Below, one piece after another: positions 33,444 through 64,000 of a DNA stretch of 64,000 nt. The translations under genes were made by a program, and so were the position numbers. The notes below the pieces were generated by a model that was given only the letters and a program-made list of their open reading frames with translations, did not search any database and was not told where the DNA came from. Source of the DNA: Peribolospora baueri (Eukaryota > Basidiomycota > Peribolosporomycetes > Peribolosporales > Peribolosporaceae); assembly GCA_029717555.1 (NCBI GenBank), contig JAMDHS010000035.1:142565-206564 (forward strand). Direction: 5' to 3'. Position 1 is the stretch's first letter. Each line of letters begins with the position of its first letter.

Positions 33444-33771
33444 GCAGTAGAAGGAACGAATGGATTGAATGAACACCGCCCGCAGACGTCATGATTCACG
33501 CTGGCTGCGGCAAAGACCGCCCGCAGACGTCATCATTCATGCTGGCTGTGGCAAAGAACCTCCGCCCCGCTGCGCTGGTCCGACCTTGGCAGCGTTAACG
33601 AGGTCGGCGTTGGAGGAGAAACGCCGAGGGCGAGTGGAGGAACAAAAAGGGACGGGACGGCCCATCGTCCCATCGTCACAGCACATCATCTCGTTGACCC
33701 TCCTCCCTCATACCTTCCCCTCTCGCTTGCTCCGATACCCAGAGATCAATACCGTCGTCAGCATATCCGAC
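33444..33771. other. Intergenic region containing a 41-bp tandem duplication
   Basis: Lies between ALG10 and the cystatin-like gene. Its only distinctive content is the duplicated 41-bp unit described separately. It is presumably the promoter of the cystatin-like gene. Confidence 0.5.
33476..33557. repeat. 41-bp direct tandem duplication, two copies
   Basis: Copies at 33476-33516 and 33517-33557 differ at three positions. Each contains GACGTCAT, a CRE/ATF-like core. The pair lies ~215 bp upstream of the cystatin-like start, so it may be a duplicated upstream activating element. Confidence 0.85.
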
Positions 33772-59215: not shown

Positions 59216-61270
59216 CGACGCTTGGATGGACAAGTTTCCGACCATAGCCAAGATTGAAAGATGCATCGCGATGGCAGGCAATAGGAAGGAAAGGGACATT
59301 TGTCCGAGTTCATAGAGTCTAATTTCGTCCTCTGATCCGTCCTTCCGTCTTAGGGCCGAGACAGTCGGCATGTACTTCAGTATTAATAGCTGATGCCAAC
59401 GCCAGGAATCCTACCGGTCTGTCGCCCCTGCTCCCCGCAGTCTCGATACCCCTCCTTCCTGGCCCTCGTCCTGCGAGCTTTCTCCGAGTCGTTTCCCTTG
59501 CCCCGCAGGGAAACCCCTGTATACGATGAGCGTTCGCACGATCCCTTAGAGGGGACATATGCCGACGCTTTGCAGGCAGCGAGAGCCAAGAAGAGAGTTA
59601 TGCACCAGAGTTCCATCTCCTCTACTTGACGTCCATACAGTTAGCGTGACAAAGAGGACAATTCATTTGAATAGCGGACCTTAAGAGGATTCCAATTCGG
59701 TGACACCCTTTTCCACTACCCCTCTTTCCTCACCTTTTGTCGCTTTCGTTCTTCTTTCATTCTTTTACCTCAACCACTACCACCTCCAACTCCAAACCAT
59801 GTCCCACTCCTCCGACACCCCTCGGCAGTTAGCCGCCCTCGCCAATCTTCGCGCACGAGTCCATCTCCCCGCACTTCGTAAGCACCCATTTGCCTACCTG
59901 CCGCCAACGCGATCAAGCAAAACACGAACATCGAAGTGCACGCCGGCAGACTCCCTGGTGTTTATGCTCGGCGGGGCTCTGCCATGCGAGAATGGCCGGG
60001 GTCGGTGACGACCATGCTGAGCAATCGTGTGAATGTTATCCAACCCTGAATATGTGCCGATGACGGGTGCCGACCAGTTCTGCATTCGCCAACGACGACC
60101 TAAGCTACTGTATGGCAAGCGCTTTGCGTGGCGCGTCGGAGTAGAAGCACGATAAGAACGAGGGGAGCCGCCGGATCGCATGAGTCCCAGCGGGCTAGAC
60201 CGTCATGACCGCGTCGTCTCCCCGTCCAACCATCTGCCCTGTTAGACCCCGAGTGGCAGGCAGCGTTGCAGATTCGCCTCCCAAACCTCTCCATCAGGGC
60301 CCGCGTCCGTCGAGACCCACCGACACGCCTATCTCGGCCTCGTCGCAGCCTTCTGCGCCCCCGCCTGTGCCCCCTTGAAGAGAAGGTCGAATTTCGTGAT
60401 GAAAAGGTCGACGTCAGTGACGGGGAAAGGGTGGCTTCAGGGTGAGCGCATGCGGGTCGGAAGGTCGAGGTGAGAAAAAGAAAGACGTAGGACACAATAC
60501 AGGGTGGCAGACTCACCGGCGGATGCGTTCTCTTGTTCAAGCAGGTCTCTTAGCTTCATCCGCCGACAAGCTCACATGTCTCGCCTAGCGCATCGTCAGT
60601 AGCGAGCGCCTTCAGAAAACGTCTATGGTGACGGTGGAAGAGTCTCGTGGGCGTCTCTGGGGCGGAGGAGTACCTCTTGGATCACTCCGTGTTGTGGAAG
60701 GAGTTCACGTCCGCCGTGGTGAAGCACATAACGGAGAAGATTCTCATGGGGAAGGAGGCGTGGACGCTCATGATTTTTTGCAGGGCGCTGACGCGGTGAA
60801 GGCGCCGTAGGATTCTAGGGTCAGAAGCGGTGCACTTCTATCGGTCCTTTGTGCCCTCGTTTCCTTTTGTTCTCTATGCTGACTCACATCACAAGGGTAT
60901 TGTGCGTGCAAACTTCTCCATACATATGGACTGCACGAGGTAGGGTTCTGTGTCTTGTTCCCAAGTATAAATGAGGGGCATCTGCTCAGCTTCGGCGTTG
61001 CCCACCTACCTCTTAACACTCATCATCTCGCCGCATCGTCTCTCTTTCAGTACGTCCCGCTAACCTAAACCCGAAATCTAACTCCACAGTCTTCTCACTA
61101 CGCTTGCGGGTAGTAGTCATCTTGCCTTCATACAGGTGGCGCTAGACTGAAGACCACACCTCCTATCTTTGCTCTGCACCCCAATTTAATTGCCCATTCA
61201 AGCGTCAATCACCTCCTCCGTTGGCTTGCCTGCCATTCGCCACATTCTGATCAATCTTCGTATCAGAGTC
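59216..61270. other. Subtelomeric intergenic region, possible gene fragments, nothing firm
   Basis: About 2 kb. An ATG at 59800 after a pyrimidine-rich tract opens a 27-codon exon-like stretch (SHSSDTPRQLAALANLRARV) ending at a GTAAGC donor at ~59879, which looks like a genuine first exon, but I find no continuation. Frames at 59393-59629 (plus) and 59383-59616 (minus, with an N-terminal hydrophobic stretch) overlap each other, and neither can be supported. The region near 61160-61270 should hold the promoter of the next gene. Confidence 0.35.
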
Positions 61271-62446
61271 ATGGGTGGAGCAGCCAGCAAATTCCTGCCC
61301 AGCGTTTGCCTGGGCTCGTCCGATTTATCCGCAAAACAGGAAGAGCCGGCGCGACAGGCAGGATATCAAATTGACCACGACAATGTCGTGCATCACCCGC
61401 TCGGAGCTGGATCCTACATTTTCCGAGAAGGGCTTATCCAACACCTAAACAATCATTGCACCAAGGGTCGCATCATCCTACATATCGGTTCGCAACCGAA
61501 CAGCTCTCCACACATGGGCACCATCGTCAACTTCGCGGTCGCATTCTTCCTAGCATCCAAGCTGTATCACGATCACGATCGCCCGGTCCTGGTCTCCCTC
61601 GATATCGTCGACACGGCTCCATCGGAGCAGCTTACCATAGACGGGATTCGCTATCAACGCAGCCAGCGCTTCACGCGTGAGATGGATGGGTATATGGGAG
61701 ACTTTATATCCGTACTTGAAGCCCTACGTCCCCGCACCGGCGTTGAATACAGGATCAGGACCCAAGCAGAATTCCTGTCCGATCCCTTGATGCCGGCGGC
61801 GCTCAGTGAAGTCATACGTGACCGAGACGTGCTCGGCCCCTCGTTCTCCCCAAAGACCCGCAAGCTAGCCATCCGCGCTGCGTGTCCTCACGTCGATTGC
61901 GGACTGGCAGACAAGGATGGGGTGCGGAACGTGTACGAAGACAACGTCATCACGTTCTCGTGCCCTCACCACGGATCGTACATCATCAATGTGTCGGATC
62001 CCCGGGATATACAAAGGCTAGAATTCAACACGCCCCTTCGTAATATCCTGCGGGCCAAGGTTTTTACTCGAGACCCGGATGCGTCCTGGATCCATGTCCC
62101 CGGAGCAGACTATGCGGGCTATTACCAAGAGCAGTTGCTCTGGCGTCACATAGACCAGCCGCTCTTGACCTTTTACTCCCCGCTGATCGTCGACTGGTCG
62201 GGCGCGAAGCTGTCGAAGAGCCTGTACGTCAGAAGCGGGGCGTACCAGTACCTCAAGGACGCGGGCATGGACTATCTGGTATCGTTTGCGAAGTTCAAGG
62301 AGCAGGGAAAGGACCTGGACGTGGTTTTTGATGAAGTGGCGGATTGTGTTGACCACCCGTATAAACTGTTCCGGTCATACAGTGTGGCGTACATCGACTC
62401 GCTGTTCAAAGGGGATACGCCGCACCAGGGAGAGATCGGTAAATAG
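61271..62446 (+). CDS. Intronless class I aminoacyl-tRNA-synthetase-like protein with predicted N-myristoylation site
   Basis: 391-residue protein with no intron, unlike nearly every other gene here. It has the two marks of the class I synthetase (HUP-type nucleotide-binding) catalytic core: a HIGH-like QPNSSPHMGT at residues 75-84, after strand RIILHIGS, and a KMSKS-like GAKLSKSLY at 311-319. Between them are a CPHVDC/CPHHG pair (C205, C210, C231, H233/H234), a possible zinc site, and GADYAGYYQEQLLWRHI. The arrangement recalls class I lysyl-tRNA synthetase, but the length leaves almost no anticodon-binding domain, so it may activate an amino acid for something other than tRNA charging. The first ATG gives MGGAASKF, a textbook N-myristoylation context. 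An upstream TTG at 61190 would extend the frame but is unlikely in a eukaryote. It converges with the ASCH-like gene. Confidence 0.7.
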   Translation: MGGAASKFLPSVCLGSSDLSAKQEEPARQAGYQIDHDNVVHHPLGAGSYIFREGLIQHLNNHCTKGRIILHIGSQPNSSPHMGTIVNFAVAFFLASKLYHDHDRPVLVSLDIVDTAPSEQLTIDGIRYQRSQRFTREMDGYMGDFISVLEALRPRTGVEYRIRTQAEFLSDPLMPAALSEVIRDRDVLGPSFSPKTRKLAIRAACPHVDCGLADKDGVRNVYEDNVITFSCPHHGSYIINVSDPRDIQRLEFNTPLRNILRAKVFTRDPDASWIHVPGADYAGYYQEQLLWRHIDQPLLTFYSPLIVDWSGAKLSKSLYVRSGAYQYLKDAGMDYLVSFAKFKEQGKDLDVVFDEVADCVDHPYKLFRSYSVAYIDSLFKGDTPHQGEIGK

Positions 62447-62571: not shown

Positions 62572-63166
62572 TCAAAACAAGCGGATTTGATCCTCGACCA
62601 CGATATCCTTCACCATGCTCTCCGTCACATAAGCGAAACGCTGCGGGAAGGTCACCCCGTACTTTTCCTGCATCTCCGCCAAGGGCAATGGATGTCGAAG
62701 CTGGTAAAGTTCCTTGATCTCGTATGCGTACGCGGCCACGGCCTTCTTCAGCCCAGCGTTGAAATCCGCATTCCCCATTCCATCCTCAACCTCGATCTCG
62801 CCCGGAGATTTGCCATCACTGATGACGGCGATGTATCGTAGCGTCTGGTCTGGGCTGGAGGCATATAGCCTGCGGAGCGAAGTCATTAGAATAGCGCCAA
62901 CGAGGGTTCATGAGTGAACTGAAGGATTGCTATAACACTCACCACATCCTCTTGACCGAGTTGGAGATGAGATACTTGCGAAACTCGTGGTTCTTCGTAC
63001 GTGCGACAATATAGTCCATATAGACAGGCTTGATGGAAATCAGAATGTCCGCTTTGGACGTGGTCTCCTTCGACGCGGACGGGGCAGTTCGACGGCGAGA
63101 TCCTGAGGACAGCTCGGACACGGCGGCTTGCCGTTTTCGCTTTGTCGAGGCTGTCTCCTCCTTCAT
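62572..63166 (-). CDS. ASCH/PUA-like domain protein
   Basis: 173-residue protein from two exons, 63166-62943 and 62869-62572, joined in phase 2. The N-terminal ~45 residues are basic and Ser/Thr-rich (STKRKRQAA could be a nuclear signal). The domain begins ADILISIKPVYMDYIVARTK, NHEFRKYL, and continues across the intron as RMWLYASSPDQTLRYIAVI then GKSPGEI. This fits the ASCH/EVE branch of the PUA-like fold: an SIKPxYxxxI strand-helix, an E-x-R-K turn, and a (V/W)LYASSP strand. Such domains bind RNA or modified nucleic acid bases. The rest (AYEIKELYQLRHPLPLAEMQ, then GVTFPQRFAYV) is probably a helical wrap. It is the last gene before the telomere; its stop lies 125 bp from that of the convergent aaRS-like gene. 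Confidence 0.65.
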
Positions 63167-63902: not shown

Positions 63903-64000
63903 TTAGGGTTAGGGTTAGGGTTAGGGTTAGGGTTAGGGTTAGGGTTAGGGTTAGGGTTAGGGTTAGGGTTAGGGTTAGGGTTAGGGTTAGGGTTAGGGTT
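63903..64000 (+). repeat. Telomere, (TTAGGG)n
   Basis: Sixteen perfect TTAGGG units plus two bases run to the end of the window. The G-rich strand reads 5' to 3' toward the end, the correct orientation for a right-hand telomere. The array starts abruptly, with no degenerate units visible before it. Confidence 0.98.

Follow-up and report, generated by a model that had tools for sequence, protein, structure and literature searches.

The window (the whole stretch of 64,000 nucleotides analyzed here) ends where contig C107 ends, and close to that end lies an open frame for a short protein resembling a class I aminoacyl-tRNA synthetase. This locus raises the question of what such a protein derives from, whether it has a partner, and what it might do in a fungus. 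The features that bear on this question are as follows.

61271 to 62446, plus strand: stand-alone synthetase-like protein of the class I LysRS kind, 391 aa, encoded by an intact open frame in one exon

61271 to 61366, plus strand: codons of the fungal N-terminal extension, ~32 residues including MGGAASK (alignment A1)

61511 to 61522, plus strand: HIGH-like motif H81-M-G-T84 inside QPNSSPHMGT (12-row alignment)

61883 to 61972, plus strand: zinc-ribbon-like insert C205-x4-C210...C231-x2-H234 (invariance of the 4 residues; putative metal site)

62207 to 62221, plus strand: KMSKS-like motif KLSKS, residues 313 to 317 (12-row alignment)

62572 to 62869, minus strand: exon 2 of the ASCH-type A partner gene; predicted whole protein of 173 aa

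62870 to 62942, minus strand: predicted 73-nt intron of the ASCH gene (GTGAGT...CGCAG, GT-AG); frame and homology continue over the join

62943 to 63166, minus strand: exon 1 of the ASCH-type A partner gene (gene model, homology, profile match)

63903 to 64000, plus strand: telomeric TTAGGG array at the contig end (repeat scan)

The frame at 61271 to 62446 begins with MGGAASK and closes with a stop codon. A profile of alignment A1 without the fungal row (11 rows) matches this frame at an E value of 6e-104, and it is the sole match (E up to 10) among the 1003 stop-to-stop frames of at least 40 aa in the window. Since the profile was built without the fungal protein and matches nothing else, we conclude that 61271 to 62446 is a real gene. 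The nearest in-frame stop on the 5' side is at 61187, there is no ATG between it and 61271, and the second in-frame Met is residue 82. Therefore, MGGAASK is the start of the protein, barring an unseen spliced upstream exon. As the TTAGGG array starts at 63903, the gene ends 1457 bases before it. An earlier note on this DNA had described an intronless, subtelomeric gene ~1.5 kb from the telomere with an MGGAASK start, and this description holds, with the one proviso about the start. Elsewhere in the window, a 41-bp tandem repeat is present in two copies at 33475 to 33557 (92% matches).

In class I synthetases, the residues of the HIGH and KMSKS motifs serve ATP-dependent activation of a carboxylate. 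Residues invariant in all 12 aligned family proteins include Q75, N77, P80, H81, G83, T84, C205, C210, C231, and H234, and further G278, D280, G311, A312, K313, K316, and S317; H81, G83, K313, K316, and S317 are the class I motif residues. The invariance of the HIGH and KMSKS residues argues that the protein would be capable of ATP-dependent carboxylate activation. Of the signatures named in the earlier note, KLSKS is found at K313 to S317, the HIGH-like signature is present but was placed one residue off as "PHMG" (the motif is HMGT, H81 to T84), and the possible Cys/His site corresponds to four residues kept in 12/12 proteins, which are predicted to bind metal. A weak Pfam match of residues 199 to 236 to a Rieske iron-sulphur protein (E value of 0.038, 14.3 bits, cut-off of 20.3) was rejected because the relatives show C-x(2-4)-C...C-x2-H, mostly with no His between the first two Cys residues.

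Against the class I LysRS model PF01921 (tRNA-synt_1f), the fungal protein scores 10.6 bits, which is below the cut-off of 27. No Pfam model is matched over its cut-off, the NCBIfam search was also empty, and a phmmer search of solved structures at an E value of 1 gave nothing relevant. When PF01921 was run on other family members, 3 of 4 had no match at an E value of 1; the Macrococcus member L010 reached 21.9 bits (E value of 9e-5), again under the cut-off of 27. In a profile-profile comparison, the family matches PF01921 with a probability of 95.6% and an E value of 1.2e-8, over the N-terminal half only; the alignment pairs PNSSPHMG with PSGVPHIG and reaches into the Cys-rich insert. The family profile, run over 242 haloarchaeal genomes, has matches in 20 at E ≤ 1e-3, which are one truncated family member and 19 others. 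The 11 of these 19 that were fetched are all class I LysRS, 57 to 68% identical to L034, but since these loci (L056 to L066) were chosen by the family profile, their match is not a free test of LysRS kinship. Of two class I LysRS loci fetched by means of PF01921, L034 is matched by the family profile and L035, a divergent DPANN class I LysRS, is not (E value of 3.2). Ten more loci fetched with PF01921, which by eye are other class I synthetases, gave an E value of 0.005 for L040 and ≥0.3 for the other nine. Taken together, the profile and profile-profile comparisons support the view that the family has a putative class I synthetase-like core with kinship to class I lysyl-tRNA synthetase, in line with the class I core proposed earlier. 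A DPANN genome also carries a different stand-alone LysRS-I-like protein of 359 aa (L052, 1156 to 2235, minus strand), which PF01921 matches at an E value of 1e-12.

The reading frames of 11 of 13 class I LysRS are 537 to 604 aa in length, and the other two are longer open frames of 803 and 874 aa. In contrast, the fungal protein has 391 aa, with only 74 residues C-terminal of KLSKS, and we conclude that the family lacks the C-terminal anticodon-binding part, as its length had suggested. Between DYAGYYQEQ and KLSKS the fungal protein is 7 to 8 residues shorter than its relatives. Thus, the family shares with class I LysRS the HIGH region, a match that extends into the Cys-rich insert, and the KMSKS-like motif, but differs in its missing C-terminal part, in its scores below the Pfam cut-off, and in being accessory to another LysRS.

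The presence of another LysRS is a consistent finding. The fungal genome (22.1 Mb in 178 contigs, in which the fungal transcription-factor family PF04082 has 26 matching pieces) encodes a class II LysRS on contig C18 (546.6 bits with its pieces, cut-off of 427.6). Four other family-carrying genomes (G001, G002, G003, and G005) have a class II LysRS over the cut-off and two (G004 and G006) a complete class I enzyme, so that a separate LysRS is present in 7/7 family-carrying genomes examined. A housekeeping LysRS role was rejected because the fungus already has the class II enzyme.

The earlier note had overlooked a partner gene, a decayed second pair, and a wide prokaryotic family. The partner, an ASCH-type gene at 63166 to 62572, lies on the opposite strand and is convergent with the synthetase-like gene; in archaeal loci the ASCH-type gene lies downstream of the synthetase-like gene. 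The joined window ASCH protein is 38% identical to a Woesearchaeal ASCH protein (E value of 8e-28). An ASCH profile made without the window row matches both exons (E values of 2e-14 and 4e-9), and these are its sole matches in the window. Two types of ASCH partner occur. Type A proteins match the PADLOC family PDC-M11B (6/6 tested; E value of 4e-17 for the window protein), whereas type B proteins exceed the PF04266 cut-off (2/2 tested) and have no match among PADLOC models (0/2). The window protein has no match to PF04266, and the archaeal ASCH relative at L008 reaches 16.1 bits against the cut-off of 21.2. Four archaeal loci have type A followed by type B, and the actinobacterial plasmids and phages that have ASCH carry type B alone; the archaeal and actinobacterial type B proteins match each other (L008 against L012, E value of 4e-9).

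An ASCH gene is found within 1.5 kb in 30/33 distinct loci (28/31 outside the fungal genome), where a locus is counted by a family-profile match at E ≤ 1e-12. The loci without one are L006, L013, and L052, of which L006 and L013 hold full-length synthetase-like members. Type A is present in ten loci, type B in 25, and both in five, but the ASCH profiles were built partly from counted loci, and these seed loci match by construction. The type A seeds are the window, L004, L005, L007, L008, and L009, and the 13 type B seed proteins are from L004, L005, L007, L008, L012, L014 to L016, L018 to L021, and L024. Found without being seeds were type A in C10, L010, L011, and L051 and type B in L017, L022, L025 to L033, and L051. 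The 33 loci are partly alike and not independent (L010/L011; L029/L030; L014/L016/L017), and they exclude L001 and L002 (re-fetched, and counted as the window and C10), L046 to L050, L055, and the Picard phage locus L023, which is similar to L012. The type A profile has no match over the loci fetched for other synthetases.

The two genes are closely coupled at many prokaryotic loci. With start codons set by the annotators or by us, the genes overlap by 8 nt in 7 of the 12 loci compared (archaeal and Macrococcus) and by 4 nt in the 5 others (actinobacterial or phage). In six loci (L015, L019, L020, L021, L024, and L032), both genes fall within a single stop-free frame, which may mean that they are fused or else tightly coupled; four of these six are plasmid records, and there the annotation gives ASCH its own start. 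At L051 (G036, 1128 to 2832), a TGA-interrupted synthetase-like gene faces two oppositely oriented ASCH genes, giving the same convergent layout as the fungal pair. Relatives of the window ASCH protein also occur in plasmid records more generally (101 matched, including 91 from Enterococcus), and 19 rows among the 20 matches listed (H17 to H35) are Enterococcus plasmid relatives under features annotated as "SinI-family restriction endonuclease."

A decayed second pair, also convergent, is present on fungal contig C10 (~4332 to 5189 of L003, which is C10:36000-45900). Pieces of the synthetase correspond to residues 36 to 59 and 69 to 144 on the minus strand, and pieces of ASCH correspond to residues 58 to 81 and 87 to 166 on the plus strand, the synthetase gene being the more eroded of the two. 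The KLSKS half of the synthetase was not found at the C10 pair, which indicates that this copy is a remnant. Over these pieces the protein is 46 to 52% identical to the window synthetase, and the best match between the DNA sequences spans 72 bases at 69%; these low values show that the C10 pair is not a recent duplicate. No telomere was found beside it, either in the 1500 bases at the start of C10 or in the 1501 at its end. A search of the fungal genome with the window ASCH protein found two places only, the window and C10, and a search with an archaeal type B ASCH protein, run without a positive control, found none. The remnants lie in a stretch with a eukaryotic uS5 gene. Based on this, on the predicted GT-AG intron of the ASCH gene, and on the 206-kb length and telomeric end of contig C107, we reject contamination as the source of the window pair.

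Relatives were sought in genome contigs (by peptides of the fungal protein), plasmids, phage records, IMG/VR, and DPANN and haloarchaeal genomes; bacterial chromosomes were covered by the peptide-pattern scan alone, and eukaryotes by this one fungal genome. The contig scan confirmed six archaeal relatives: four from Woesearchaeota and one from Pacearchaeota, 40 to 43% identical to the fungal protein, and a truncated Halobacteriales copy, 44% identical across residues 269 to 382. The plasmid search gave 12 records, two of the Macrococcus kind at ~37% identity and others from Streptomyces, Pantoea, Prauserella, and Amycolatopsis at 23 to 29%. Three Streptomyces phage records and 12 IMG/VR loci were found, and a scan with A3 for viral relatives close to the fungal type found none. 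Of the hits, 11/12 from plasmids (all but H7) and 1/3 from phages (H1) were fetched. Nine of 279 DPANN genomes (the phylum of G002) matched at E ≤ 1e-3, with six clear members and three weaker ones; the six are the five already found plus G036, which has an in-frame TGA. The fungal protein matches phrog_35625 ("tRNA synthetase"; Streptomyces phages Picard and Mojorita) over residues 65 to 374 at an E value of 2e-18. This phage group belongs to the same family, and the Mojorita gene is followed by ASCH, but identity to the fungal protein is ~27%, and the phage ASCH is type B whereas that of the window is type A.

A tree of 25 rows (20 family members, L052, and four class I LysRS) joins the family at support of 80/98 on a long stem, with a program warning of long branches. 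The fungal protein is in an open fork with Pacearchaeota, Woesearchaeota, Macrococcus, Pantoea, and the actinobacterial group, and its nearest neighbor by tree path is L006. With this fork and a fungal end branch of 0.82, the tree does not place the fungal copy inside any one prokaryotic group. The existence of prokaryotic relatives is consistent with horizontal transfer, as the earlier note had proposed, and we infer entry into the fungus from a prokaryote; the direction itself draws no support from the open fork.

What might the pair do? In the explanation that we tentatively favor, although we would put it at somewhat less than an even chance, it is an accessory, mobile two-gene aminoacyl-ligase module of prokaryotic origin that works outside ribosomal translation. 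The 391-aa protein would be a free-standing catalytic core that descends from class I lysyl-tRNA synthetase; with ATP it would activate an amino acid, or a carboxylate resembling one, and pass it to an acceptor selected without an anticodon. Because there is no anticodon domain, the acceptor must be chosen by other means. Most likely, the ASCH (PUA-like) partner would bind or edit an RNA or nucleobase acceptor, replacing the missing domain, and the product would serve outside ribosomal translation. According to PMC7641849, domains of the PUA/ASCH group bind nucleic acids and as a rule have links to translation and RNA modification, and the group includes members with a predicted affinity for modified bases; PMC5615036 reports a Zymomonas ASCH protein that acts as an RNase on single-stranded RNA. 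These roles, together with the missing anticodon domain, favor an RNA or nucleobase acceptor. Against this module stand the PF01921 scores under the cut-off, the empty search of solved structures, the match confined to the N-terminal half, the unmatched L035, the lack of ASCH at L006 and L013, the convergent fungal genes, which form no operon, the fungal gap before KLSKS, and the partial overlap of ASCH profile seeds with counted loci.

The Macrococcus and Pantoea contexts point equally to small-molecule chemistry. If the core worked as a ligase in natural-product synthesis, acting on peptides or small molecules, the activated amino acid would go into a metabolite, alongside further ligases and exporters, and RNA would be uninvolved. 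In the two Macrococcus plasmids, two ATP-grasp genes lie immediately upstream and genes for an MFS transporter and an Rgg-like regulator are also present, and the run of two ATP-grasp genes, synthetase-like gene, and ASCH (L010, 4134 to 8048; L011, 7563 to 11477) looks like a small peptide-metabolite cluster. The Pantoea plasmid, in which the synthetase-like gene has no ASCH (L013, 7198 to 10978), carries genes for a methyltransferase, a SLOG-fold protein, an EamA transporter, and a Ham1-type pyrophosphatase. Paralogous class I synthetases are also predicted in peptide metabolite pathways (PMC2922099). Although the Macrococcus operon and the Pantoea cluster keep a metabolite pathway in view, ATP-grasp is annotated in only 2/12 plasmid and phage regions (both Macrococcus), the constant partner is a nucleic-acid-binding-type domain, and no biosynthetic neighbors of the fungal copy were identified in the partly annotated window; we consider this role unlikely, at perhaps one chance in a few. 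Beside the truncated haloarchaeal copy with ASCH (L009, 2456 to 7322), asparagine-synthetase-like and ABC-transporter-like neighbors were seen by eye, possibly a peptide cluster. A cyclodipeptide synthase suspected by eye beside L007 had no support from Pfam.

The carriage of overlapping two-gene units by plasmids and phages, the rarity of the family among the genomes searched (six members in 279 DPANN genomes), and the match of all six type A proteins tested to PDC-M11B, which is a PADLOC candidate family, make a conflict module conceivable. In such a toxin-antitoxin or anti-phage system, the synthetase-like protein would harmfully modify tRNA and ASCH would neutralize or sense this, or ASCH would recognize modified foreign nucleic acid. 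It is consistent with this that on C10 the synthetase gene is the more decayed of the two and that ASCH genes accompany predicted GNAT-EVE toxin-antitoxin operons (PMC7641849). However, of four synthetase-like proteins run against PADLOC only the Macrococcus one matches, and weakly (E value of 0.008), the two type B proteins tested match nothing there, and the convergent fungal genes are unlike a toxin-antitoxin operon. In addition, the PDC-M11A model PDLC04422 was not found in the fungal genome, which is weak evidence, as its controls matched nowhere. We regard a conflict role as rather improbable. The short protein and the decayed copy on C10 could also be taken to mean a relic or duplicate of an ordinary fungal tRNA synthetase with a lost C terminus, a case raised in the earlier note. 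This is largely contradicted by the family alignment, in which the relatives found are prokaryotic, similarly short, and alike in their retained catalytic residues, and by the class II LysRS of the fungus, and we give it hardly any credence.

Synthetase cores that act outside translation are already known, and GluQ-RS is one such paralog. Paralogous MetRS and cyclodipeptide synthases are others (PMC2922099), and the resemblance to the window protein is that of class I catalytic cores put to other use. They differ in that no class I LysRS paralog or ASCH partner is named in the passages concerned; the terms "LysRS" and "ASCH" are absent from the text of that paper, and "lysyl" occurs twice, at least one of these mentions concerning MprF lipid aminoacylation. 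The same paper describes fungal AspRS-MprF-like fusions such as AN0314.2, synthetase paralogs thought to act outside translation, but these join a class II synthetase to an MprF-like ligase, and neither is in the window pair. In open-licence PMC, we found no paper joining "ASCH domain" with "lysyl-tRNA synthetase" or "tRNA synthetase" and none joining "aminoacyl-tRNA synthetase paralog" with "PUA domain." Since no such paper was found, a LysRS-I-derived core with a conserved ASCH that occurs in archaea, on plasmids, in phages, and in a fungus may not have been described before, and it is this combination that may be new. Should the favored module aminoacylate RNA or a nucleobase, this would amount to a new route of modification. 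The compact two-gene form eases testing, and ASCH is a concrete partner for the fungal gene, which owes its interest more to this partner and to its family than to the points raised in the earlier note.

An N-myristoylation context is a start of the form MGxxx[ST]. MGGAASK fits it, and lies in an N-terminal extension of ~30 to 32 residues that is absent from the prokaryotic relatives, the bodies of which begin near residues 17 to 30. Such a context is uncommon, although attention was drawn to it only post hoc: of the 1467 ATG contexts without a stop in the window, 19 conform to MGxxx[ST], and 2, including this gene, also have K or R next. Going by the motif alone, the fungal protein may be N-myristoylated. 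A further extension of the favored module, in which an anticodon-blind LysRS-I-derived ligase with an ASCH acceptor reader, passed between domains of life and taken up by the fungus, would aminoacylate RNA or a nucleobase and work at the fungal membrane through an N-myristoylated terminus, seems to us a long shot. The fungal genome does contain an NMT gene.
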